Below are positions 2,818 to 54,112 of a DNA stretch of 64,000 nucleotides, in pieces. The notes under the pieces are model-generated. The model searched no databases, had not been told where the DNA came from, and saw nothing but the letters and a program-made list of their open reading frames with translations. The position numbers were made by a program, and so were the translations under genes. The first letter of the stretch is position 1. Every line of letters starts with the position of its first letter. The DNA is from Simmondsia chinensis (Eukaryota > Streptophyta > Magnoliopsida > Caryophyllales > Simmondsiaceae): the NCBI GenBank assembly GCA_018398585.1, contig JAGTTD010000010.1, positions 31,164,638-31,228,637 of the forward strand. The letters run 5' to 3'.

Positions 2818-3626
2818 TTTTCTCCCGGTTGGAAAAAATTCGCCTTCGAATTCTCCAAGGGATCTTCCCGGCTGATCTCGTCATGTAGAGCCTCCTTGCT
2901 CCAGCCACCATTATAGCCCCTAGTAACCAACTCCCCCTTCTCGGTAGGGTTTCTTCAGGAACTTTGTTGTGCCGGCATTGCACTTCCCTTGTTGGCGATA
3001 AGCTATACGCCGTCCCAACAGGACACAACCCCTTCGATAGACCCCCAACCTTAACCGGCACCTCCTCCTCGGCATTGATGGGCTCGTCATATGTGGGCTC
3101 ATCAAATATGAGCGGAGAAGATAAATCAAGATGTGGTGCCCCATCAAAGATAAGTCCCCCGCTTGTGACGTCTAATGGTGTAGATGCCAACTCGAACAAG
3201 CGAACTTCGTCCTAAGTTTCCTCCACCACTATGACGGTTTTCTCTTCTTCAAACTCCGGGTTCTTAATCTAGAGACCGGATTCCCACCTTCGATCGTCAA
3301 AATCGTCTACATCTCCGGTAAAAGGCTGAGCTCTCCTCTGCCTTTGGTTCGGTAGCTTAGCAGCCGAGAACGGATTCTGAAAGCCCTCGTCCGTGTCATT
3401 ATTAACACCTGATGTTAATGGGCGTTGGGGCTAGGCTCCCAACTCCAATCCGAGATTTGCCTCTAGTTGAATCAAGCAACTCCTGATTCGCTGGAATCTT
3501 GCTTCCAAGTCCTTGAATCTCCGCTTGGTCTGCCGTAGAAAATCTCGATTAAAAACGTTTCCGATGGCAGCGTACCTCGGCCGCCCATGGGTCATATTGG
3601 AAGTTGTTCTGAGCTCTGATACCAAC
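2818..3626 (-). pseudogene. Short internal region of a non-autonomous gypsy element (gag-like remnants)
   Basis: This 0.8-kb internal segment lies between two LTRs and reads on the minus strand. From the primer binding site inward it encodes a gag-like start (MTHGRPRYAA, then a stretch ending in LRQTKRRFKDLEARFQRIRS). Fragments follow (LIFDEPTYDEPINAEEE) and a tail with the element's typical pre-LTR wording (RRIFSNREKML). The same wording recurs in the 60674-63886 element (IFDEPIYEEEE), so both belong to one family. Protease, reverse transcriptase and integrase are absent, so it can only have moved with proteins supplied by another element. Stops interrupt the frame near 3215 and 3430. Confidence 0.65.
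3613..3624 (-). other. Primer binding site, initiator Met tRNA
   Basis: The minus strand reads TGGTATCAGAGC, the standard complement of the 3' end of initiator methionine tRNA in plant LTR retrotransposons. It lies two bases inside the LTR end at 3627, which fixes the minus orientation of this element. Confidence 0.9.
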
Positions 3627-6644: not shown

Positions 6645-8936
6645 TGCTTTTAGCCACCTAAAGTAAATTTCTGGTAGCAAATAACCATCATTTGACAACT
6701 CTATTGGAAAAACGGAATATTCCATCCAATTTTGAAATATTCTGTGTTCTTTCCCTGTATTTTATGATTTCTAACTTTTAACCATCTATATTTTATTATA
6801 TATAGCTTTTAACCCCTGCATTTTATAATTTCTAGCTTTCAACCAACTTTATTGTATGATACATAGCTTTTAACCACTTGCATGTTATGATATATGACTT
6901 TTAACCACATGTATTTTATTATTTCTAGCTTTTAACTATCTGTACTTTATGATATATAGCTTTTAACCACTTAATTTTTTTCTTAACCACATATTTCAGA
7001 AACATTCTCGAAAATCTGTGTGTTAACACATAGATTCTGTGTGTTAACACACAATCTTACCTCTGTGTTGAGACACAATAATTATGGCCATTACTTCGTG
7101 CGGGTTTTTTATAATTTTTGTAAAATTAATTTAGTTTATTTTGAAAGGTTGTGTCCCTTGATTAAAGACATGTTTAATAATATGTGTCTCTTTCTAAAAG
7201 GCACATGGATTTCTATTTATGTCATAACATGTGTGCAAACAAGAATTTGTACTAGACCTAAATACAAACATATGTCATAACCTGTAAAAATTGAATAACA
7301 AAAATATGTTGAAAATGTATCCTATACGTATAAAAGCTATACATGTCCATAAGCTTACATAAATCTTCAAGATGCAAAACTTCTTACCAGTCATGCCTAA
7401 TCATCTTTACGTAATAGTATAGTAACAAAAAAAAAACCACCAATAACCACCAACATCAAATATATCCCATACGTATGGGCCGGAGTGCAGGGCGATGAAA
7501 CAACAGCACACACAGAAGATGAAGGTGGCGGAGATGAGAATGCTGAGGTGGATGTGCAGACACACGAGGAAGGATAGGATCAGAAACGACGTTATAAGAG
7601 GCAAATTGGGCGTAGCCCCCATTGAAGATAAATTGAGGGAGCAACTTTTGAGGTGGTTCGGACATGTTAGAAGGAGACTGGACAACGCTCCAGTAAGGAC
7701 ATGCGAACAGCCCCTTACTACACTAGGCAGGAGAGGAAGACCCAGGCCAAAGAAGAGATGGTTGGAGACGATCTGACAAGACCTCACCCACCTAAACCTT
7801 CGAGAAGAGATGGCCTTAGATAGGGCCCAATGGAGGGCTAGTATAGGGGTTATAGATGCTCCAGTTAGAGTAGGGTAGTCTAGCTTACTAGTGCTAGGCC
7901 TTGACTTCCTCCTGGCGCACTTAGGTTGTGTACTTGCTCTCATGAGCTACTACGTGCTTACCTATCCTGTGATTTTCTTTGATTTCTTTGATTTCTACGT
8001 GTTCTGGCTTGCTTTGAGTTTGTTGTTTTGCTCGCGGTGTGTTTTGCCCTACTCATGCTTTGACGCTCTCTTGCTGCCAGGTTACATGCTCTATGCTGCG
8101 GACCAGCTTGTCAGGCTTCTCAGGTTGGGGGTTCTCGAAAACAGCCTCTTTCAGGGTAGCCCCTTGAAGGGGGAAGGCGGCGTACATCTACCCCCCCCCC
8201 CCCCCCCCCCCCCTCTCTCTCTCCTCTCAGACTCTACTTTTGCGGGAGGCCTTGTAGGCACTGGGTTTGTTGTTGCTGTTGTTGTTGTATCACATAATCA
8301 TCGATTCTATTTGACAATAAAAAGTAAGGCTATCGAAAAAAGAAAAAAAAAATTAATCAGTTTGACAACAAATCTTCCAGTGTGGCTTTTTATTGTTGGT
8401 AAGGCCTGTCATCACAACGATCTCAAACGACCATTATTATTTTCAAATTACTTCATTACGTTTAGCGACCGTAAAATTACTATCTCAAAACTTAGGTTAT
8501 TAATATGTAATTTATTCTAAAGTACAGGTGGTTAAAAGGTATATATCATAAAATATAGGTTGTTGAAAACTAAAAATAATAAAATATGGGTGTTTAAAAG
8601 ATATATATCATAAAATATAGGCAGTTAAAGACTAAATATCATAAAATAAAGGTCACTAGAAGTTAGAAATCATAAAATACAGGTGATTAAAAGCTATATA
8701 TCATAAAATATATGTGGTTAAAATCTAAAAATTATAAAATACAGTGAATGAACACAGAATATTCCAAAATTGGATGAAATATTCCATTTTTCTAATACAG
8801 TTGTCAAATGGCGGTCATTTGCCACCAAAGAATTTTTTAGGTGGTTAAAAGCAAAAAAAAAAAAAAAAAAAAAAAATATTAAGTGGTTAAAAGCTAGATA
8901 GTATAAAATATAGGTGGTAAAATGCAAAAAAAATTG
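6551..8936. mobile_element. Foldback (MULE-like) DNA transposon, 2,386 bp
   Basis: The outer ends are inverted repeats of roughly 400 bp: left 6551-7000, right 8520-8936. Each carries tandem units of about 34 bp built on a GTATTTTATGATATATAGC-type wording, with inner stretches such as ATATTCCATCCAATTTTGAA matching in inverse. The element is flanked by an exact 9-bp duplication TTCTTTATA at 6542-6550 and 8937-8945. Nine-base target duplications with long inverted ends are typical of Mutator-like elements. No transposase is present. The interior holds a LINE fragment (7470-8288) and short TGTGTTAACACA palindromes at 7015-7075. It is non-autonomous and inserted inside copia A. Confidence 0.87.
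7470..8288 (+). pseudogene. RTE-type LINE 3' fragment (C-terminal end of reverse transcriptase ORF plus 3' UTR)
   Basis: The reading frame at about 7475-7880 gives the C-terminal wording common to plant RTE-type non-LTR retrotransposons: VAEMRMLRWMCRHTRKD, IRNDVIRGKLGVAPIED, LRWFGHVRRRLDNAPVR, RGRPRPKKRW, then LREEMALDRAQWRASIGV and a stop near 7880. One in-frame TGA after LETI breaks it. The catalytic reverse transcriptase and endonuclease are missing, as expected for 5'-truncated LINEs. The 3' UTR (about 8110-8288) contains GAAAACAGCC, GGGGGAAGGC, GCGTACATCT, a run of 23 C (8191-8213), and ends in GTTGTTGCTGTTGTTGTTG. This tail is shared with the three SINEs in the window. Confidence 0.85.
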
Positions 8937-13337: not shown

Positions 13338-14964
13338 TCAGACTGAAAGACCCACCAAATCCGAGCAATGCTCGAACTTGCTCCCTGGTAGAACTTTAGT
13401 AAACATGTCAGCTGGATTGTCCTCAGTCCCAATCTTCCTCAACTCCACCTTCCGCTCGTCAATCCGATCTCTAATAAAGTGATACTTCACATCTATATGC
13501 TTGGTTCTTTCATGATGTGACATTTGATCTTTCGCTAGGAGAATGGCGGACTGACTATCACAGTAGACTCTAACTGTGCCCTGCTTCTGTCACTGCCATA
13601 TACTCGACCTCGCTAGTAGACTATGCTGTAATAGGCTGTAAACACGCTCTCTAACTGATAGCTATGTCACCTAAACAAAACACATACCCTGATGTGGACT
13701 TCCTCTTATCGAGGTCTCCACCATAATCAGAATCTATATACCCAACCAAACAACACTTACTTTTCCCATATTCCAAACATAAATCAGAGGTTGCACGAAG
13801 ATACCTGAGAATCCACTTCACTGCATGCCAATGTTCTTTACCTAGATTCTCCACGTACCTACTAACTCTACTCACTGCAAAAGCAATATCTGGACGTGTG
13901 CAAACCATTGCATATATAATACTACCCACTGCACTAGAATAGGGAATCTGAGACATATACCTGACGTCCTCCTCAGTCTGAGGGGAATCTAATGCTGAGA
14001 GTTTGAAGTGAGCTGCTAAGGGCGTGCTAACTGGATTAGCATCCTTCATATGAAACCTGCCTAACACCTTCACAATATACTTCTCCTAAGGCAAGTACAA
14101 TTTTCCTGCTTCTCGGTCTCTACGAATTTCCATGCCTAAGATCTTCTTAGCTGCTCTAAGATCTTTCATCTCAAACTCACTCTTCAACATAGATTTCAAA
14201 TCATCAACATCTTTCATGTCTCGTGCTACAATCAACATATCATCAACATACAAAAGCAAATAAACGAAGCTTGAATCAGTCCTTCTGAAGTATACACAAT
14301 TATCGTATTTACTCCTGATGTACCCATGACCTGTCATGAACTGATCAAATCTCCTATACCACTGCCTAGGAGATTGCTTCAAACCATATAAAGACTTTTG
14401 AAGCAAACACACATGATCTTCTTTTCCTTCTACAACAAAACCCTCGGGCTGATGCATAAAGATACTTTCTTCTAGTTCACCATGAAAAAATGCAGTCTTT
14501 ATATCTAACTGCTCAAGCTCTAAGTCATGCATAGCAACCAAAGACAACAGTGCACGAATCGAAGTATGTCTAACTACAGGTGAGAATATGTTATGAAAAT
14601 CAACACCTTGTACCTAACTGTAGCCTTTAGCTACCAAACGTGCCTTGTATCTTGCATCTTTAATTCCAGGAATACCCTCTTTTCTTTTGAAGACCCATTT
14701 GCATCCAATTAGTCTTTTACCTGTTTGAGGCTTCACCAATTCCCAAGTATGATTCTTATGAAGAGACTGCATCTCTTCATTCATAGCGACGAGCCACTTC
14801 TCAGCATCTGATCTCGATACAGCCTCTGAATATGAAGTCGGCTCGCAGTCATATAAAGACTCAGCAGTAGTAAGGGCATAAGCAATCATCTCCTCATACC
14901 CATATCTCTTTGGAGGCCTGATATGTCGCCTCGGTCTACCACCAGCTATAGTGTAATTCTCCAC
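13338..14964 (-). pseudogene. Tork-like copia reverse transcriptase and RNase H
   Basis: Domains in order on the minus strand: the start of reverse transcriptase (WLVAMNEEMQSL, GCKWVFKRK, YKARLVAKGYS; 14964-14614), the palm (LDIKTAFFHGELEE, LYGLKQSPRQWYRRFD, LLLYVDDMLIVAR; 14547-14086) with the catalytic YVDD box intact, the thumb and connection (YSSAVGSIIYAMVCTRPDIA, 14073-13651), then RNase H with DSDYGGDLDKRKST and the end [13 protein letters not shown] to [11 protein letters not shown] (13523-13338). Stops are single codons: GYS-stop-VQG at 14613 and LP-stop-EK at 14085 sit where glutamine is expected, and IS-stop-R near 13650 where tryptophan is expected. About 30 residues of RNase H between the EYMAVTEA and GTVRVYCDS segments (13540-13620) are deleted. 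No longer functional. Confidence 0.92.
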
Positions 14965-15192
14965 CTGCTGACCTGTTTCTGCATTATTAGTAATAATATC
15001 AGAAACCCGTACCTGTGGTGCTGGAATACTCTGTAGCTGAACAACCTGCTGATCTGACTGTATCTCTGTAACATCAGGTGTCTCAACCTGAATTGAATCA
15101 CTGTTAATGGAGGGTGTGTGTGGAGGATGTAGTAGAGCAGACTTATCAAAGGTAACATCTCTACTAGTCAGAAACTTCTGAGCACTGGGATC

Positions 15193-15831
15193 TCACAGTC
15201 TATATCCCTTCACACTTGACGAATAACCAAGAAAGATGTATTTCTTGGCCCTAGGCTCCCGCTTTCCATCTATCATATATGCATATGCAGGACAACCAAA
15301 AACTTTAATCCGAGAATAATCAGAAGTAGAACCAGACCATACCTCCTCAGGTGTCTTCATCTCCAATGAAGAATGCGGTGTCTTGCTCACAAGATAGCAA
15401 GCCATGCTAACTACTTCTGCCCACCATTCTCTTTTTAAACCTACATTTGAAAGCATACATCGAGCCTTCTCAAGTAACGTCCTGTTTAATCTTTCTGCCA
15501 CTCCATTTTGTTGAGGTCGACCTGTACATGTCCTGTATCTGACTATACCGTGATCTTCACAAAATCTAGTGAAGTCACCTTCAACGAACTCAAGACCATT
15601 ATCAGTCCTCAACCTCTTGATCGGCTTCCCTGTCTATTTTTCAAGCAGAATCTTCCATCTCTTGAAGACATCATACACTTTATTTTTCTGCTTCAGAAAA
15701 TAGACCCAAACTTTCCGTGAGTAATCATCAGTAAACGTTAGAAGATACCTGGACCCACCTTTAGAAGCCACTCTAGAAGGTCCCCACAAATCAGAATGCA
15801 TGTAATCTAACGTTCCCTTTGTCTGATGCAC
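15193..15831 (-). pseudogene. Tork-like copia integrase
   Basis: This is the integrase catalytic core, which would insert the element's cDNA into nuclear DNA. On the minus strand HSDLWGPSRVASKGG and YLLTFTDDYSRKVWVYFLK (15831-15634) hold the first two acidic residues of the DDE triad. RTDNGLEFVEGDF and GRPQQNGVAERLNRTLLEKA (15612 onward) hold the third region. KVFGCPAYAYM and KKYIFLGYSS form the C-terminal copia integrase signature. One in-frame TAG (LLEK-stop-TGK, about 15633) interrupts it where glutamine is usual. A TGA at about 15192 follows GYRL, where tryptophan is usual. The core is otherwise full length. Confidence 0.92.
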
Positions 15832-15855
15832 TGCTGACTTGAAGCTGACTCTCTT

Positions 15856-16764
15856 CTACTTCCCATAAATACAGTGCTCATAGAATTCCATCAGTCCTGT
15901 TGACTGACCACAAAGCAGTCCCCTCTTACTCTGCTCAGACAATGCCTTATCACCAATGTGACCCATTCTCATGTGCCACAGTCTTGTGATCTCTACATCT
16001 GTCATAGCAGATGTGGAAATAGCAACTGAACATGTCGCGGTAGTAACTGTAAGCTCATACAAAGTAGCATCCCTATTTCCTTTCATCACAACTAAAGCAC
16101 CCTTACTGACCAACATGACTCCACCTTCAGCAGTGTACTTGTACCCACTAGACTCAAGGGTACCTAGAGAAATTAAGTTCTTCTTTAAATACAGGACGTG
16201 ACTTACATCACTCAAGGTTCTAATAGCCCCATCAAACATTCTCACACTGACTGTCCCAATCCCCACTACCTTACAAGCAGCATCATTACCCAACAAGACA
16301 ACTCCACCATGTATAGACTTATGCGTGGAAAACCAGTCTCTATTTGGAGTAACGTGATATGAACAACACGAATCCATGACCCACTTATCCTTGGGTCTGG
16401 ACTGAGAATCAGAAACTAATAGAAACTCCCCTTCGCTATCCTCCTCTTCAACACTAGCCTCAGCGGACTTGTCTTTGCCCTGGTCACCCCTGTTACCCTC
16501 TTTCGATTTATTTTTGTATTTGTAACAGTCTTTTTTTACGTGCCCTTTCTTGTGACAATAATGGCACGACAGGTTTTTATGTCTAGATTTAGACCTAGAC
16601 TTTTTCCCACCATTGGATCCCCTATGTTCTGGTTTACCTCTCACATGCAAACCACTACCTGAGTCATTCCCCGAGTCAAATAACTCCCTATCTACCCTTT
16701 CTTTACTCACAAGGTTTCTTTTCACCTTATCAACAGTAATGGTTGGCTTACCCCCGTATGTCAT
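15856..16764 (-). pseudogene. Copia zinc knuckle, protease and pre-integrase domain
   Basis: The frame is open for 302 codons. In order: a basic linker, the nucleocapsid zinc knuckle CHYCHKKGHVKKDC (CX2CX4HX4C, complete) near residues 66-80, an acidic hinge, the aspartic protease start WVMDSCCSYHVTPNRDWF (the usual DSG/DTA active site reads DSC), its flap region VVLLGNDAACKVVGIGTV, and the pre-integrase motif LWHMRMGHIGDKAL near residues 263-276. It ends in CIYGK followed by TAG where the family has glutamine, then continues into integrase. The gag frame precedes it, separated by one stop. Confidence 0.92.
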
Positions 16765-16797
16765 GCTTTCTACGAAGCCCTTATACGAATTAGAGTG

Positions 16798-17238
16798 CTA
16801 ACACAGTAATATCATAGCTTGATCCTCGTCCTTAGGGACATCATCCAATTCCTTTAATTCTTGTATAATACAGGTAAACTCGCTAAGATGGTTTTTAAGA
16901 GATGTACCTTCTGTCATACGGAAAGTGAACAACCGACACTTTACTGCTAGTTTGTTGGAGACTGACTTGTGGCAAAACATGTCTAACAATTTCTCCCATA
17001 ACTCCTTTGCGATTTCCATCTCCAAAACCTCTGACAGAACATCATCAGCCAAATACATCTGTATCGTCGTGAGAGCCTTATCATCCATCTCTTCCCATTG
17101 TGCCTCGGTAATAGTCTCGGGTTTCTTCTCTTTCTCCTCCAGTACTTTCTTGAAGCCGTTCTGAGTCAGGAGTCCTTTCACACGGACTTGCCATAAGATG
17201 AAGCTTCCCTGATCATTGACCTTCTCTACCTCGATCAT
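16798..17238 (-). pseudogene. Copia gag (capsid) domain
   Basis: Structural capsid protein of the Tork-like element. I chose the ATG at 17238 (MIEVEKVNDQG), because the longer open frame to 17343 runs back through the primer binding site into the LTR. The sequence has the UBN2/Retrotran_gag wording: FILWQVRVKGLLTQ, WEEMDDKALTTIQMYLADD, AKELWEKLLDMFC, KLAVKCRLFTFRMTEGTSLK and HLSEFTCIIQELKEL. A stop after AMILLC (16798-16800) replaces the first residue of the usual SLP motif. The frame resumes as NSYKGFVESMTYGG in the next segment, so gag and pol were one polyprotein. Confidence 0.9.
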
Positions 17239-17274
17239 AATACCTAGTGCCACTGTATCAATTCGAAGAACCAG

Positions 17275-17286
17275 GCTCTGATACCA
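17275..17286 (-). other. Primer binding site, initiator Met tRNA
   Basis: The minus strand reads TGGTATCAGAGCC, a perfect match to the usual initiator Met tRNA primer complement, three bases inside the 5' LTR end at 17290. Confidence 0.93.
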
Positions 17287-17289
17287 ATT

Positions 17290-17765
17290 TGTGCGGAAAT
17301 AAACAATTCTCCCGGATTGCAATTGAATCAAATACCATGACAATAAAGAGAAATAAATGGACTAAAAGAGAAAAGAAACAATCGACACAATGATTTACGT
17401 GGAAACTCCTTTACAATCGAAAGGGGAGAAAACTACGGGCGAAGATTGGAGCTTTTATTATTGAATCAAAAGAAGAATTACAATATTCTCTCTCACTCTC
17501 AATTTATTTGGTGGCGGTGCCGCTCAAGGGAAAACCCTCACTTTGAATTGGATAAATAATGACGTAAACCTTCGTCCATATTAATAGGCGCTGGGAAATC
17601 GCGCTTCCCGATCGATCGGTACTTAACTGATTGATCGACTTGCTTTCTGGAGGCGTCTTGCTTTTACGTAACTTTCCTGATCAATCGAGCTCCACCTCGA
17701 TCGATCGACCTCCTCACGACCCTTCTCCTTAAAATACCAAGTAATTTTGAGACATTTTCCTAGCA
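17290..17765 (-). repeat. 5' LTR of the Tork-like element
   Basis: 476 bp, homologous to 12794-13250. The 19-bp difference is one extra block (GGTACTTAACTGATTGATCG) inside the CGATCGATCG-rich promoter part. The TATA equivalent has decayed to ATTAATA. It ends CTAGCA and is followed by the target duplication CATAA. Confidence 0.92.
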
Positions 17766-21454: not shown

Positions 21455-21471
21455 CATTAGGGTTTGACAAG

Positions 21472-21644
21472 AGGGCACCAACACGCTGTCACCGAATCCC
21501 ATTAGAACTCCAAAGTTAAGCGTGCTTGGGCGAGAGTAGTACCAGAATGGGTGACCTCCTAGGAAGTCCTCACCCTCAGGCTAGGGACATCGGGAAACAT
21601 CCTCTCTTCAGGTTAACACCCTGAAGGGGGAAGGCTGCGTACAT

Positions 21645-21683
<39 letters not shown>

Positions 21684-21729
21684 ACCCCACGTAAGCGGGA
21701 GCTCTTGAGGCACTGGGTATGTTCCTTTT
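21472..21729 (+). mobile_element. 5S rRNA-derived SINE, copy 1
   Basis: The head (about 21480-21580) is 5S rRNA: ATCCCATTAGAACTCC, AGTTAAGCGTGCTTGGGCGA and GAGAGTAGTACCAGAATGGG, then TGACCTCCTAGGAAGTCCT, covering the internal RNA polymerase III control boxes almost unchanged. The body (GGGAAACATCC, GGGGGAAGGC, GCGTACATCTG, 36 C at 21648-21683, AAGCGGGAGCTCTTGAGGCACTGGG) matches the RTE LINE 3' end at 8110-8288. It is flanked by an exact 17-bp duplication CATTAGGGTTTGACAAG at 21455-21471 and 21730-21746, which proves insertion by target-primed reverse transcription. Inserted into copia B. Confidence 0.93.
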
Positions 21730-21746
21730 CATTAGGGTTTGACAAG

Positions 21747-27880: not shown

Positions 27881-28677
27881 TTACTTATTTTTATGATGGT
27901 AACCATTCCTATGTAGGTGACTGGGCTTCTGACACTCCCAACAGACCATTTTCACCTTCTTGTCATTTTTCTTCTTTTGGAAGTGTCCGATTTTCTTAGT
28001 TCCTTTACTCGGCTGGCCTTCTTCTATGACATTGATTTTACCAATGTCACTAGGAAGGTTTTTGTTATCATCCTGTACCCTGTAGCCTTCCACAACACAC
28101 AAATGGTTAGCCAACTCCTCAATTGACATATCTTCCTTACTATGTTTGAGACTTTTCTTAACATCTCTCCACAAAGGAAGAAGTTTGTCAATTAAGGAAG
28201 AAACAACTATGGTATCATCCATATTCAATTTATGTTGGAAATTATTCAATATTCGTTCGATTTTATGGAACTGCTCCATGACAGGATGATCATCTGCCAT
28301 TTTATAATTATTAAACTGAGCAACCATGAATTTTTGGCTTGTTGCATCCTCGACCATGTAGGGTGCCTCAAGTGCATCCCATAATTCCTTTACGGTCGGC
28401 ACGTTTAAGTAGATGTCAAGCATGGCATTAGTCATACCGTTGAGTATGTGCCCTCTGCAGATATAGACATTATTCTCCCACTTCAGTTCGGCCCTCTACT
28501 CGGCCAAAGTCTCCTCCTTCTTAGAAGCGGGGGACGGAAATGGTGTATTCATCACATACATCACATTCAAGTAGTAATGAGGAAGTGCATCTTCCTCTAC
28601 CATCGGCAGAAATTACCGCCATCAAATTGATCCAACTTAACAAAGCTGGCCGTCATTTCCCTAAGTGATGAAGCCAT
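27881..28677 (-). pseudogene. Copia C gag
   Basis: The start codon is probably the ATG at 28677 (MASSLREMTASFVKLDQFDG), because the plus-strand relative at 31576 has the same start. Several stops follow (28440-28600). The open part 28435-27881 then gives MTNAMLDIYLNVPTVKELWD, ALEAPYMVEDATSQKFMVAQ, FNNYKMADDHPVMEQFHKIE and SSLIDKLLPLWRDVKKSLKH, typical UBN2-type gag. The zinc knuckle reads CWECQKPSHLHRNGYHHKNK: the last cysteine of CX2CX4HX4C has become tyrosine or glycine, so nucleic-acid binding would fail. Inactive structural gene. Confidence 0.9.
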
Positions 28678-36062: not shown

Positions 36063-39000
36063 TCAGTCATAATCATATAGGGTATCATCTTCTTCACTAT
36101 CACTATTGTAGAAGTACTCTTCATTATCTTCGTCAAGTAAAGTAGTCTCTTTTAAAGGTATGTGAATCATTGCCCCTTCAATATCTTCTCTAACAATGTC
36201 AAAATCATCAACATTGATATCCATCATTGCTATAGACAGAACGCAATCTATTTCAGGTATGTTTTCCTCTCCCATGTCAAATAAATCTCTTGGTTTTGTG
36301 TTAGTGACAACATGCCGTTCTTTTCTCTCATCATCAGGAGTGTAAAACATTTGCAATGAATGAAAAGCTAGCACAAAAGTTTCATCTGTTTTCCACAATG
36401 CTTTTAGGTTTACAAGAGTAAATCCAAGTCGATCTTTCTTGATACTCTTATTAGGATCAACCCAATCACATCGAAAAAGAATGACCTTTCTTCCTTGATA
36501 ATAGTTAAATTCTAGTATTTCTATTAGCACACCATAACATATTACCAAACCACCTGTATGTGTAGTAGCAATGACAACAACACCAAAATTTTGAGTTACA
36601 GCTTTAGTGTCCACACTTTTGACACGAAATCTAAAACCATTTCAAGTGATTCATGTCATTGTCTTTATCTGCATGTTAGGCCATTTACTAAACCATTGTA
36701 GGTCTTCTATTATAACAGGATCAGCAGGTAGATGAAGCTTTACCTAAAAAATTAAAAAGAAATTAGAATAATACACGTCTTCAAAATGTTGAAGTCGCTT
36801 GATAATGTTGGTGCCCAATATTATTTCGTCTTAGAACTTACATTAGACTCAAACCAAGTACAAAATTCTTTTCTGTGAATTTCTTTGATATCTAACTGTT
36901 GCATCTGGGTATTTTCAATTGAAAGCAGTTGTTTATGCTCTCTACAAAAAAAACCAACATAACATAATCAAAATAGATGATTGAATATGATAAGACGATT
37001 GAAATGGCATGAATCATGGAAATGACTTACCCGATGTAGATGTGGATTTCATCACAATTGAACAAAACAAACCTATGTGCCTCTTCTCTCAATTCATCAC
37101 AAGCAACTATATCCTTCTTCGATGTGTAACGACTTTTGAGAGAGAATATTGATAATCCTTTACGCATTTCACCATCATCTAAGTCTTCATTTCTCTTAGA
37201 ACGAGCCTCTCTTGTCTCAACACTATGCAAATACCTCGAGCAAAAACTTAAACACTCTTCTGCAAGGTATCCTTCAGCAATAGATCCTTCGGGCCGACTT
37301 CTATTACCCACATAATCTTTAAACCTATGGAGGAACCTAGCACAATACACACTAAGTTATTAATAAGACATTATTAGAAAAGTATGTGTTGATTATTTGT
37401 AGGAATACAAAATCAAAAAGACATACCTCTCTATTGGATACTTCCAGTGAAAATGTACAATACCAGCAACCTTTGCCTCATATGCCAAATGAATGGCTAA
37501 GTGCACCATTACATCAAAGAAGGAATGGGGCAATATTTGTTCAAGGTCGCAATGAACTATCTTCATGCAATCTTATAAGCACTCAAAGTCATGTTGCGTC
37601 GCCACCTTTGAGCATAACTTTCTTAAATAGTTGCATAGATCAATTATGACCCAACTCACCTCCTTATTTTTCATTTCTCGCATTGCTAATGGCAGCAACT
37701 GTTGCATCAAAATATGATGATCATGACTTTTCAATCCATATATCTTACGTTCCTTCATGTGCACACATAGTGCAATGTTGGATGCATATCCATCGGGGAC
37801 CTTAATTCTAGCCAACACATTTATAAGTTCCTTCTTCTCTTCACCACTTAGTGTGAAGCATGATGGAGGTAAAATTGTCCTTCCTCTTTCTTCTTTTGGG
37901 TGAAGATGCTTCCGAATATTCATATCTTGAAGGTCAAGGTGTGATTGTAATGTGTCTTTTGTTTTTCCTTCAATATCAAAAAGAGTTCCGATCAAACTTT
38001 TAGAGATATTTTTCTCAATATGCATAACATCCAAATTACGTCGTACTAGAAGATATTCCCAATATGGAAGTTGGAAGAATATGCTCTTCTTCTTCCAAGG
38101 TCCAACTTCATCTACCCATCCCTTGGTCTTTTGTTGAGATGCAAGACCCTTGCCTAGAGTCCCATTTAACCTTACCATCTGTTCCAACAACTCCGACCCT
38201 GATCTGAATTTTGGAGCACGCCTCCTTTCACTAGTTCTAATAAATGATTTTCTATTATGATGATATTTATGACCATCGCTAAGAAAGCATCGATGTTCCT
38301 GATAACATAATTTCCTACTCCTTTTCAAGTAATGAGAACATGTATCTATGTTACAATGGGGACATGCAAATTTTACTTTAACCCTATACCCACACAAATT
38401 ACCATAAGCCGAAAAGTCATTTATTGTCCACAATAATGCAGCTTGCAATGAGAAAGTCTCATTCTTTAAGGCATCATATGATGCCACGCTAGTCTCCCAC
38501 AACTCACTTAATTCCTAGATCAAAGGTTGTAGGTAAACATTAATATCATTGCCTGATGCGTTGGGCCCAAGTATGAGCAAATAAATCATGAAGTACTCTT
38601 GCTTCATACACATCCATGGGGGTAAGCTATACATCATCAGAACAACCGGCCATGTACTATATTGTGTACCCATTATCCCAAAGGGATTGAACCCATCACT
38701 TGATAGACTAAGCCTAACATTGTGTGGATCTGAAGAGAAATTAGGGTATCATTCATCCAAATGTTTCCAAGCCACTGTGTCTGCTGGATTATTAAGCTTA
38801 CCATCTTTTGTGCGCTCATCCGCATGCCATCTCATGTATCTAGATATTTTGAATGACATGAATATCCTCTTCAGTCTTGGTATCAAGGGAAAATGGCGAA
38901 GCACTTTGCTAGGAACTTTAGCACCGTTAACAAGTGATACCATAACCCCCACCATTTGTAGTTTTCCATCTTAATCCACCACAAATAGGGCATGTGTCAC

Positions 39001-44475: not shown

Positions 44476-45000
44476 AACAAAATAAAACCTATACTATATT
44501 CAAATAAATACTAGTGTACAAAACAAAAGGTTATAGGTCAATTACATAATAACCATTTCTAGTTTGTTAACTGTGTAATTTGGACTTTATACAATTCACA
44601 TTATATCAATTTAATCATAAAGTGAATTCATGTTAGTTAACTACAGATTTTTGGTAGTTGGGGTGTGGGTGGGTTTAAATCGGTCAAAGGATGGATTTGT
44701 ATTGATTCGCTTGCACTTGACATGACCAAGTCTTCCGAAATTAATGTCAACAGCTGAACTTAAATTTCACCCTAGGAGTGAATTAATACAATACATATTT
44801 TATACGGACTAAATTAACAAAACTAAAACTAAAAAAGGACTACATTTAATTAATGGGCCAAGTTCGTCAATTATGTTCTTAATTTTTAAAATTTTTTTTT
44901 TAAATTGTGACGATTTAGTTCTCCTGCATAAACCAAAGTTTTAATGTTTTTAAGAGTGTTAATTTGGGACTATCATTGTATAGGGATGGAAAGCTAAGAG
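44476..45000. other. Spacer, no gene seen
   Basis: Unique-looking AT-rich sequence between a MITE and a SINE. There is no open frame or terminus. A poorly preserved TGTATAGGGATGG at about 44979-44991 may be the left target duplication of the next SINE. Confidence 0.5.
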
Positions 45001-45256
45001 GGCACCAGATCCCATTAGAACTCCGAAATTAAGCGTGCTTGGGTGAGAGTGGTATCAAGATGAGTGACCTCCTGAAAAGTTCTCGTATTGCACCCTTCAG
45101 GTTGGTAATTCTTGGAAACAGCCCCCCTTCAAGGTGCTACCCTAAAGGGGGAAGGCTGCGTATATCCCCCCCCCCCCCCCCCCCCCCCTCCCCCCCTCCC
45201 AAAAAAATCCTGCTTAGGTTGGAGCTCTTGAAGCATTAAGAATGTTGCTTTTTTAC
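45001..45256 (+). mobile_element. 5S rRNA-derived SINE, copy 2
   Basis: It begins AGGGCACCAGATCCCATTAG and carries AAGCGTGCTTGGGTGAGAGT, ATGAGTGACCTCCTG and AGTTCTCGTATTGCACCC, the complete 3' part of 5S rRNA. The LINE-like body follows: GGAAACAGCC, GGGGGAAGGCTGCGTATATC, 23 C (45166-45188), then GGAGCTCTTGAAGCATTAAG. More diverged than copy 1 (for example box C GATGAGTGACC). Possible degenerate target duplication TGTATAGGGATGG / TGTAGAGGGATGA around 44979 and 45257. Confidence 0.88.
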
Positions 45257-45259
45257 TGT

Positions 45260-46360
45260 AGAGGGATGACAATCACGTAGAATCACTATCTGAAATCCTA
45301 CTTTTCTTGTTTTGTCTTTACGTTGAGCTATTCGATATTGAGATACAAACATTACCTATGCTGACAACTTTTAACAATTGTCCGTCAATAGATTAAATGC
45401 TACTGCTTGTAATCTCTTACCACATAATTATGAATCATATTCCTCTGTGACATATTATGAAACCAAGCCCTTGAATCTAAAATAAAAAATCTACCAAAGA
45501 TTGTACATCAAAAATAGAGCATCCTGCACGTTCTTAGTTGTGACATTGACTAAGTTAGGATTAGATTTCTCCATGACTCAGCAAGTCCATTTCAAGTATT
45601 ATTATTTTCCTTACTCCAACACGAGCCCATTCGGCATTCTCTATTCTTCTTCAACAAGACACTTCTCCACACGAAGTTTTATCTAAATCCCTCCCTCGTT
45701 CCACAACTAAAACTAGATTTAAAACATATATCACTAAAATAGGTCAGGGCACTCATTGCCCGCTATAAAATCACTTATGTTGTGATGTATTCAATTTATT
45801 TTTTGGGCATTGTTCTTGCCAAAGTTAAATTTGTTAATGTCAAAGCAATCATGTTGTAAAAAGATGAACTTGCTTTGGCATAAACAAATTTGGACCTAGC
45901 AATAATATTTAATTTATTTTTATTAGCATTATAACGACTTGCCAACATTTGAGCAGGATACCAAGAAAACTAATGCTTGAGTTTCACTGTCATATTTTTT
46001 CTCCACAAATTTTAACTGATCAACAACGATACTGAATTCATTCATAAAATTTTGTAAAATTGATCGCGATAAGCTCAAATGAATCTAACGCAAAACCTAT
46101 AAATCAAGAAGGTTTCAATTCTCTTATAACATATTATTAGACTTGTCCCCAAATATTGAAGGATGAAGTTTCATATTATAGAGAGTATAATTTGCGTCTT
46201 TCAATACCCAAAATATGTTTCATCAAATTCCATAATTCTAGAAATTTGCACATCCTCAATCGAGACAATCTTTTAGAACTATATTTTAAAAAATCAAGTC
46301 ATTCCAGACCGATTCAATTCGCCAGACGAGTCCAGTTCATGAATCAACTCGATTAGTTTG
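45260..46360 (-). pseudogene. Copia gag-protease remnant, minus strand
   Basis: Very decayed. Minus-strand wording at about 46055-45930 (FTKFYEFSIVVDQLKFVEKK then SETQALVFLVSCSNVGKSL) resembles the UBN2 gag segment FNxIVxxLxxLGxxxxDExxALxLLxSLP. Near 45480-45400, WLDSRAWFHNMSQRNM resembles the protease start WxLDSGASFHMTxxRxxF. No zinc knuckle is clear and every frame has many stops. The assignment rests on the order of two weak matches. Confidence 0.42.
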
Positions 46361-46575: not shown

Positions 46576-46822
46576 CAAACAACAACAACAACCAACCCAA
46601 TACCTCAAGGAGTCCCGCCTAAGCGGGTTTAGGGGGGTGGATGTACGTAACCTTACCCCTTCAGGGTGTAACCCTGCCGAGAGGCTATTTCTGAGGATCT
46701 CCAACCTTATAGGGTTAGCAACAAGAGAACTTGCCTAGAGGCCACCCATCCTGGTATTACTCTCGCCCAAGCACGCTTAATTTCAGAGTTCTAATGGGAT
46801 CCGGTGCATTAGTGCCTGATAA
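46576..46822 (-). mobile_element. 5S rRNA-derived SINE, copy 3 (minus strand)
   Basis: The minus strand reads ATCAGGCACTAATGCACCGG then ATCCCATTAGAACTCTGAAA, AAGCGTGCTTGGGCGAGAGT and ACCAGGATGGGTGGCCTCTA: the longest 5S part of the three, including the upstream CACTAATGCACCGGATCCC. The body carries AGAAATAGCCTCTC, CCTGAAGGGGTAAGG, TACGTACATCC without a long C-run, CTTAGGCGGGACTCCTTGAG and TATTGGGTTGG, ending in the tail TTGTTGTTGTTG. This copy keeps the (TTG)n tail that marks RTE-type 3' ends. Confidence 0.92.
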
Positions 46823-46900
46823 ACAAACCCTAGTAAAAATTATTGAAAAAATGCACTAGTAAAAATTATTGTTATCAAATTGGTTTCTTTTTTTTACTAA

Positions 46901-52861: not shown

Positions 52862-54112
52862 TCAAGAGGTCATAGCCTCAACCATAGTGGGATCTGTAGC
52901 CACACCAGAAGCTAAAATAATGTGACCCAAATATTCAATTTTGGGTTGAGCAAAGCTGCATTTGGACCATTTTGCAAAGAGCTTATGTTTTTTGAGTGGT
53001 TGCAGCGCAACTCTTAAGTGTTCAACATGGGAAGCAAGTGAAGTACTGTATACTAAGATGTCATCAAAGAACACCAAGACATACTTCCTCAAATAAGGGC
53101 CAAATACATCATTCATCAAGGACTGAAAAATGGCTGCGTCATTTGTAAGCCCCAAAGGCATGACTCTAAACTCGAAGTGGCCATGATGAGTCCTAAATGC
53201 AGTTTTGGGAATGTTAGGCTCATGAACCCTCACTTGGAAGTAGCCAGCCCTCAGGTCTAACTTGGAAAAGACTGATGCTCCTTTGAGTTCATCTAGAAGG
53301 TCATCTATGTGAAGTAAAGGGAATTTATTTTTGATTGTATTTCCATTAAGCTCTCTATAATCAACACAAAATCTCATTGTTCTATCCTTTTTCTTAACTA
53401 GTAGTACAAGGGAAGCGAATGGGAAACAACTTGGTTGTATAATTGAGGCTTCCAACGTCTCCTTCACAAGCTTTTCTATTTCATTCTTTTGTAGGTAGTG
53501 ATATCTGTAAGGTCTGATACTAACTGGCTTAGTATCGAGTCTTAATGGTATATGGTGGTCATGTGACCTGGGAGATGGCAAGGATTTTGGCTCCATGAAC
53601 GCATCATTATACTCAGCTAATAATGACAAAATGGAAGAAGGAGTGGATGATTCAGATACCTCACAAGCCTCATTGCCTTGTACTAGTATTAGGGTAGCCA
53701 TGAAGTACTCCTCATTCTTTTGGCAGAGACCTTGCATCTTTTGTCCTGTGCCACTCTCTTTTATGCCAGTCAGTTCCACTACTTTGCCTTCTTTACTGAA
53801 GTTGAGCTTGAGCCGGTTAAAGTCCAAGGATACAGAGCTGAATTGCTTCATCCAATCAACACTAAGCAACATATCACATCCCCCAATCTTCATTAACCGA
53901 ATGTGGTATGAAAAATTATGGCCTTTCATTTGCCAGCTTGCCAAACATTGTTGTTTACACATCATAGTTTGGCCATTAGCCATTGTAATCCCCAAAGAAG
54001 CAGCATCTTCCAGGGTGAACCCTACTAACTTAGCTAACCTCGGGTCTAAGACACTGTGGGTACTCCCACTGTCTATCAGTATAACCACTGATCTTGTGCA
54101 CAAATGGCCCAA
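52862..54112 (-). pseudogene. Chromovirus protease and reverse transcriptase
   Basis: The longest open frame of the window, 416 codons. It opens with the aspartic protease (SVVILIDSGSTHSVLDPRLA; DSG active site) near residues 7-26. A linker follows, then the reverse transcriptase: PYRYHYLQKNEIEKLVKETL, FASLVLLVKKKDRTMRFCVD, YRELNGNTIKNKFPLLHIDD, FSKLDLRAGYFQVRV, FRVMPLGLTNDAAIFQSLMN and YVLVFFDDILVYS. The FFDD catalytic box is the normal form in chromoviruses. The frame ends with TGA where MTSWPSPRNVKG is expected (a TGG to TGA change), so only this one codon separates it from the RNase H part. Confidence 0.95.

Follow-up and report, generated by a model that had tools for sequence, protein, structure and literature searches.

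According to the available text of PMC9033089, plant SINEs derive from tRNAs. One of them, tobacco TS, has about 100 bases in common with an RTE LINE, and each of the two elements terminates in TTG repeats (PMC3747384). Plant RTE LINEs and their SINEs have (GTT)n and Tn 3' ends, and a T-stretch lies about ten bases upstream of a target duplication whose first base is T and whose second is typically A (PMC13295347). SINEs with a 5S head and a LINE-derived 3' end are described from animals and a fungus as SINE3 or 5S-derived SINEs (zebrafish SINE3, AmnSINE1, springhare Ped-1, Helicoverpa HaSE3 and the Aspergillus 5S-related SINEs; PMC3747384, PMC13295347). In springhare Ped-1, the 5S head is paired with BovB, a LINE of the RTE clade (PMC3747384, PMC13295347). 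In plants, 5S sequence is found in the middle of the LTR of the retrotransposon Cassandra (PMC10853983). The copies analyzed here are best read as a plant SINE family that joins a head derived from 5S rRNA to a body taken from the 3' end of an RTE-type LINE, a reading to which we assign a probability of roughly 0.93.

The window, that is, the whole 64-kb stretch of Simmondsia chinensis DNA that was analyzed, contains three copies, one from each of three subfamilies (A, B, and C), together with remnants of other transposons.

21455..21471, plus strand: left target site duplication of copy 1, CATTAGGGTTTGACAAG, an exact 17-bp direct repeat
21472..21576, plus strand: 5S rRNA-derived head of copy 1 (subfamily A), without the 5S 3'-end piece GTGTTGC; Rfam 5S, 60.0 bits
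21577..21729, plus strand: body of copy 1, a domain resembling a LINE 3' end, with a C36 run and a CCTTTT tail, common to copies 2 and 3 and LINE ends
21730..21746, plus strand: right target site duplication of copy 1, an exact repeat of CATTAGGGTTTGACAAG
about 44989..45096, plus strand: 5S-derived head of copy 2 (subfamily B), from Rfam 5S (42.2 bits) and alignment
45097..45256, plus strand: body of copy 2, with a C23 run and a T6 tail, from blastn, a profile scan, and alignment
46713..46830, minus strand: head of copy 3 (subfamily C), the most complete 5S, with a GGGT start like host 5S +1; Rfam 5S, 55.5 bits
46576..46712, minus strand: body of copy 3, with a (GTT)n end, from alignment
14086-17343: copia-type gag and reverse transcriptase remnant
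27881-28435: second copia gag remnant
36063-38502: tnp2 transposase remnant, with DUF4216 nearby
52862-54112: remnant of an element with RVT_1 and an aspartyl protease

Positions 1-120 of the Rfam 5S model (gathering score, 38) were matched by copy 1 at 60.0 bits (E 4.6e-10), by copy 2 at 42.2 bits (E 2.3e-05), and by copy 3 at 55.5 bits (E 6.8e-09). When copy 1 was compared with the window by blastn, copy 2 was 75% identical over 253 bp (E 2.5e-43); for copy 3, the identity was 77% over 177 bp (E 2.2e-31). The initial annotation had described three copies, each with a 5S-like head joined to a common body; the Rfam matches, and the recurrence of head and body together in the blastn search, bear this out. 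Its proposal that the three belong to one family stood as well, with the refinement that they represent three subfamilies. Likewise, the non-rRNA body of about 150 bp is shared as claimed; it follows the head on the 3' side, measures roughly 140 to 160 bp, and can now be specified as a LINE 3' end (see below). In the alignment, the head of copy 2 has a shorter 5' part than the B copies of the random genome sample and keeps the 5S 3' end. Upstream of copy 3 and touching its start, AATAATTTTTACTAG occurs twice, 26 bases apart, on the minus strand of window positions 46830-46870.

Copies 1 and 3 then served as queries against the host genome, which comprises 831 Mb in 35 contigs. For copy 1, the best 40 of 5123 candidates were scored; they were spread over 22 contigs, and all of them, copy 1 itself included, began at query base 1 or 2. 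Among 19 further rows of this search, 18 were 3' pieces of the same copies and 1 was an adjacent partial head. For copy 3, 33 of the best 40 of 7730 candidates (itself included) began at query base 1, and those other than itself were 85 to 88% identical to it, although best-40 lists favor young copies and thus bias identities. The 5S matches had a different distribution: among the best 47 of 51,838 candidates, which leave room for 5S genes elsewhere, 46 lay in two stretches of contig C8 and 1 lay on C29. The latter, L054 (C29:34924734-34924852, 111 bits), is a lone full-length match outside the C8 arrays. The initial annotation had named dispersed copies with a common head-body junction as support for a SINE family and had held that copies confined to 5S clusters, or a junction unique to each copy, would mark ordinary 5S pseudogenes. 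The supporting pattern was the one found, with the best 40 copies on 22 contigs against listed 5S matches on C8 and C29 and with the 5S-body junction common within subfamilies.

The copy number was estimated with nhmmer in 20 random 10-kb stretches (20 of 60 drawn regions, from the 19 of 35 contigs that were eligible, representing 616 of 831 Mb). Ten of 25 rows were counted as headed copies (E ≤0.01 with a model start at ≤40), one of them spanning model positions 2-147 only; the other 15 rows, with a model start at ≥79, were left out of the headed count. Ten headed copies in 200 kb extrapolate to about 40,000 (41,600) in 831 Mb, and since the Poisson range for a count of ten is 4.8 to 18.4, the range is 20,000 to 76,000. 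The window, with three headed copies in 64 kb, is close to this genome average and contains no cluster.

The three subfamilies differ in how much of the 5S they retain and in their tails. In subfamily A, the 3' end of the 5S is partly missing and the tail is a T-run; subfamily B retains this 3' end, and its tail is of the CTTT type; subfamily C, whose 5S head is the most complete, has a longer junction and ends in (GTT)n. Copies from the random sample were put into subfamilies by eye, and the L065 copy at 3272-3524 aligns as C type though it was labeled B in the duplication test. In B and C, the 5S is joined at or near its mature 3' end. These differences raise the question of whether LINE ends captured 5S at least twice, in separate events behind the A/B and C lineages, instead of giving rise to one diversifying family: the two lineages have distinct 5' starts, junctions, body hairpins, and tails (T-run type versus GTT). 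However, the LINE part starts at the same AGGTTGG point in all aligned copies of A, B, and C. A single origin is therefore simpler, and separate captures appear unlikely. Long C-runs occur at the same body position in LINE and SINE sequences (8191-8213, C23; 21648-21683, C36; 45166-45188, C23; and L079). The longest C-run varied from 4 to 36 across 30 subfamily A copies and was long in L079; its length may reflect slippage or an assembly effect.

To describe the body, three further features of the window are needed.

7447..7773, plus strand: 109-aa remnant of the C-terminal coding part of the partner LINE, with tblastn relatives
8118..8290, plus strand: 3' end of the LINE remnant, with a body-like domain, a C23 run, and a (GTT)n tail; nhmmer, 115.8 bits
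41829..41889, minus strand: weak body-like fragment; nhmmer, 17.6 bits, E 4.3e-05

The profile scan placed its strong match at 8115-8279 and its weak one at 41889-41844. The weak fragment had an E value of 8.3e-05 with a wider profile, and the best match in 20 shuffled windows was 4.1 bits. The stretch 7447-8290, with its C-terminal remnant, 3' flank, C23 run, and GTT tail, looks like a degenerate RTE-type LINE 3' end. The remnant at 7447-7773 gave no Pfam match at E 1, and its tblastn relatives were found in L074 (76% over 103 aa) and L055 (55% over 87 aa). A LINE C-terminal piece followed by a body-like 3' end was present in the same order in L055, L074, L071, and the window, and in L055 both are preceded by a reverse transcriptase domain (RVT_1; Pfam, E 1.6e-13). 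Among six LINE pieces scanned against Pfam, L055 alone gave a match, and no endonuclease match was obtained. Solved-structure matches of L055 were weak (maturase, RNA-directed DNA polymerase, and LINE-1 ORF2; E 0.0022 to 0.047).

A fourth body relative at 8118-8290, absent from the list of the initial annotation, proved to be a LINE end. With this sequence as the query, the best 40 of 3778 genome candidates were scored (itself included), and 12 LINE-end loci from the upper half of the match list were examined with their upstream sequence. At least 6 of the 12 (L075, L079, and L081 to L084, judged by eye) share about 80 to 100 bases of upstream flank with the window copy; the others share it partly or not at all. 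With ≤300 bases of upstream sequence per locus, clear duplications were found at 2 of the 12 (L077 and L086, exact over 18 and 17 bp, respectively); of the other 10, 8 had none that was convincing and 2 were left out of the assessment. Readings of 8118-8290 as a tRNA-headed SINE or a head-less 5S SINE were dropped, since its genome relatives share the LINE 3' flank. Because of this shared flank, the C-terminal remnants upstream, and the reverse transcriptase in L055, we identify the body of the family as a LINE 3' end, so that, as in SINE3 elements, the 3' end comes from the partner LINE. The partner is most likely of the RTE type, as judged from how the copies insert, from their (GTT)n tail, and from RTE-like protein motifs. 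The mobility of the SINE presumably depends on this LINE. In four of four single-copy folds, the body RNA was no more stable than shuffles. Two body patterns were without a match among viral and prokaryote contigs, a result of little weight, since these are not plant collections. Junction-pattern matches at three loci in viral contigs fell within phage-like DNA that has no 5S match, and we attribute them to chance.

A SINE of tRNA origin could also have given rise to these elements, if the promoter half of a tRNA-headed plant SINE had been replaced by 5S, instead of a LINE end being fused directly to 5S. The body starts with GGTTGGRGATCCT, which loosely resembles a tRNA B box. Tobacco TS also offers a precedent for a tRNA-headed SINE with an RTE LINE 3' end (PMC3747384, in the part available). 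However, the LINE ends carry the same AGGTTGGGGGTCC stretch, and therefore no SINE intermediate is needed; moreover, no tRNA gene was called in the 64-kb window. We consider promoter replacement rather improbable and favor the direct fusion of a LINE end with 5S. The tRNA head with A and B boxes that is typical of tRNA-derived plant SINEs is not what these copies have; their head is 5S.

Next, the flanks of the copies were examined for target duplications. The perfect 17-bp duplication claimed for copy 1 was exact (21455-21471 and 21730-21746), whereas none of 2000 random 40-bp flank pairs at equal spacing shared a word longer than 12. That of copy 2 was weak, with 12 bp and 1 mismatch (44977-44988 and 45257-45268), and its score of 9 was reached by 4 of 156 mismatched controls. 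At the flanks of copy 3, a target duplication was sought and none was found. For subfamily A, duplications were sought beside the ACCAAAG start and the tail in all 40 scored copies, and 29 of the 40 loci (copy 1 included) had one, versus 0 of 194 mismatched flank-pair controls; 24 of the 29 were perfect and ≥12 bp, and 23 of the 29 were 16 to 19 bp long. Six subfamily C loci, drawn from the top 8 rows of the copy 3 match list, yielded five duplications versus none in 30 controls, with three of the five ending directly before GGGT and two ending one or two bases earlier. No clear duplication was present at 11 of the 40 A loci and 1 of the 6 C loci. Target duplications thus extend well beyond copy 1. 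In the random sample, 4 of 10 copies had a duplication score of ≥12, one of these within a TA-repeat, and a fifth had an exact 10-bp match whose score was reached by 2 of 156 controls. As in SINE3 families, these are dispersed, short non-LTR copies with target duplications of variable length.

The insertion sites also had a characteristic composition. Among the 29 subfamily A loci with a duplication, T was found at -10 in 25, the duplication began with TA in 16, and TTT was present within -13..-7 in 18, versus 16% at random TA sites. The duplication of copy 1 itself starts with CA, not TA. The plant RTE-associated SINE pattern, a T-stretch about 10 nt before a TA-starting duplication, is therefore seen here.

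It is very improbable that the window copies are solo LTRs or fragments of Cassandra, whose target duplications are 5 bp long; the features of that element (two LTRs, TG...CA ends, a 5-bp duplication, and 5S within the LTR) were not found, and the copies are single units. Cassandra is indeed a known plant element with a 5S promoter (PMC10853983, PMC10886601), but the duplications here are 16 to 19 bp in 23 of the 29 positive A loci, the ends read ACC...TTTT or GGGT...(GTT)n, the 5S is at the 5' end and not in the middle of an LTR as described in the available part of PMC10853983, and the body is a LINE 3' end with a LINE-like insertion signature. A Cassandra solo LTR, 5S pseudogenes, and chance were all rejected. 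Scattered 5S pseudogenes joined by chance to neighboring repeats can practically be dismissed: such pseudogenes occur in plants and the window copies carry mutations, but the same head and body recur, with a shared junction, in the best 40 matches of copy 1 and in the best 40 of copy 3, and the loci inspected for them had sharp ends and duplications.

We then considered the SINE family with respect to its head. The majority sequence of 30 subfamily A copies was 233 nt with the C-run shortened, and the copies had a mean identity to it of 96.7%, a value biased toward young copies. The initial annotation had called for the heads to be aligned with host 5S, and they are collinear with it from +1; the subfamily A majority sequence aligns without gaps over positions 13 to 105, with 84 of 93 identical and in the same register. 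Because of this ungapped register, element base 1 corresponds to 5S transcript base 1, the arrangement predicted if the 5' end is fixed by where Pol III initiates. In subfamilies A and B, the first 12 bases do not resemble 5S; the subfamily C head starts with GGGT like host 5S and reads on to CACTAATGCACCGG.

As in SINE3 elements, the 5S-derived 5' head of all three window copies includes the internal control region. The claim that control boxes are retained holds in part: the C-box core is AGGATGGGTG in copy 3 but AGAATGGGTG in copy 1 and AAGATGAGTG in copy 2. The core of copy 3 is the canonical one of 5S (PMC10853983, in the part available) and was found in 32 of the 40 subfamily A loci (2 of the 40 were not read). 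An internal TTTT was absent from all 36 subfamily A copies with readable ends; a T-run does interrupt at least one old copy, L066. On these sequence grounds, the family is presumably transcribed by Pol III. The C box of the host 5S array was AAGATGGGTG in 10 of 10 units (L034 to L043). Several random-sample subfamily B copies share the host reading (AAGATGGG), and A and C mostly have AGGATGGG; the match between B copies and the host array recalls the promoter mirroring of Cassandra. CATTAG was dropped as a SINE hallmark, since host 5S arrays carry the same variant and it is therefore not SINE specific.

From what was directly observed (dispersal, sharp ends, duplications, the insertion signature, the shared LINE 3' end, and a LINE remnant with reverse transcriptase), the family is of the SINE3 type, that is, 5S headed, and is most likely mobilized by an RTE-type LINE. 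The internal control region of the 5S head would direct RNA polymerase III to start at 5S +1, the 5' end of the element, and the transcript would read through the body and stop at or beyond the tail. The LINE protein would recognize the 3' end common to LINE and SINE, nick at a TA about ten bases after a T-stretch, and reverse-transcribe the SINE RNA in place, leaving a duplication of mostly 16 to 19 bp. The founder probably arose by a template jump, in which a LINE reverse transcriptase would have left the LINE RNA and moved onto the 3' end of a finished 5S rRNA; the point of arrival is suggested by subfamilies B and C, in which 5S is joined at or near its mature 3' end. Tentatively, at somewhat less than even odds, we propose that a plant lineage built its own 5S-headed SINE, possibly twice, by a jump of an RTE reverse transcriptase from the LINE 3' end to mature 5S rRNA and that the resulting family of about 40,000 copies is the first SINE3 from a plant and a present-day model of the SINE3-to-LTR origin proposed for Cassandra.

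If this is true, a 5S-headed SINE present tens of thousands of times in a plant genome breaks the rule of tRNA origin for plant SINEs, and plant non-LTR retrotransposition can capture a 5S promoter. It would also supply the plant SINE3 required by the SINE3 origin of Cassandra speculated on in the available text of PMC10886601. The subfamilies, tails, and shared LINE end make 5S capture testable across related species. No plant 5S-headed SINE was found in the open-licence literature searched, where 5S SINEs are reported from animals and one fungus and where the plant element with 5S is Cassandra. The part of PMC3095306 available mentions 5S-homologous SINE3 sequences in plants, citing its Cassandra reference. 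Within this literature, the kind of element is known from animals; its presence in a plant and its combination with this LINE appear to be new. AnnoSINE discards candidates nearly identical to Rfam RNAs (PMC8825457, as excerpted), and 5S-headed families may therefore be underannotated.

Like the animal and fungal SINE3 elements, including Ped-1 with its RTE-clade partner, the family joins a 5S head to a LINE-derived 3' end. In contrast to them, its host is a plant, its body is a plant LINE end, and its head carries the CATTAG 5S variant of its host, where the 5S of other plants reads CATCAG; its origin is presumably independent of theirs. A conserved 3' domain of 37 bp reportedly defines the Angio-domain SINE superfamily of Seibt et al., and the Au/Angio-domain SINEs probably belong with the plant RTE-associated SINEs. 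A TS end used as the query gave 31.0 bits to copies 1 and 3 and 19.3 bits to copy 2, and an Au end gave 22.9 to 27.4 bits. With the plant RTE-associated SINEs (tobacco TS and legume SINEs; PMC3747384 and PMC13295347, in excerpt), the family has in common a 3' end shared with a LINE, the T-stretch and TA signature, and a tail that is either a T-run or (GTT)n; the head of TS comes from a tRNA (PMC3747384), whereas the head here is 5S. Cassandra is likewise a plant element using a 5S internal promoter, but it is an LTR retrotransposon with 5S in mid-LTR, whereas the family described here is non-LTR, with 5S at its 5' end.
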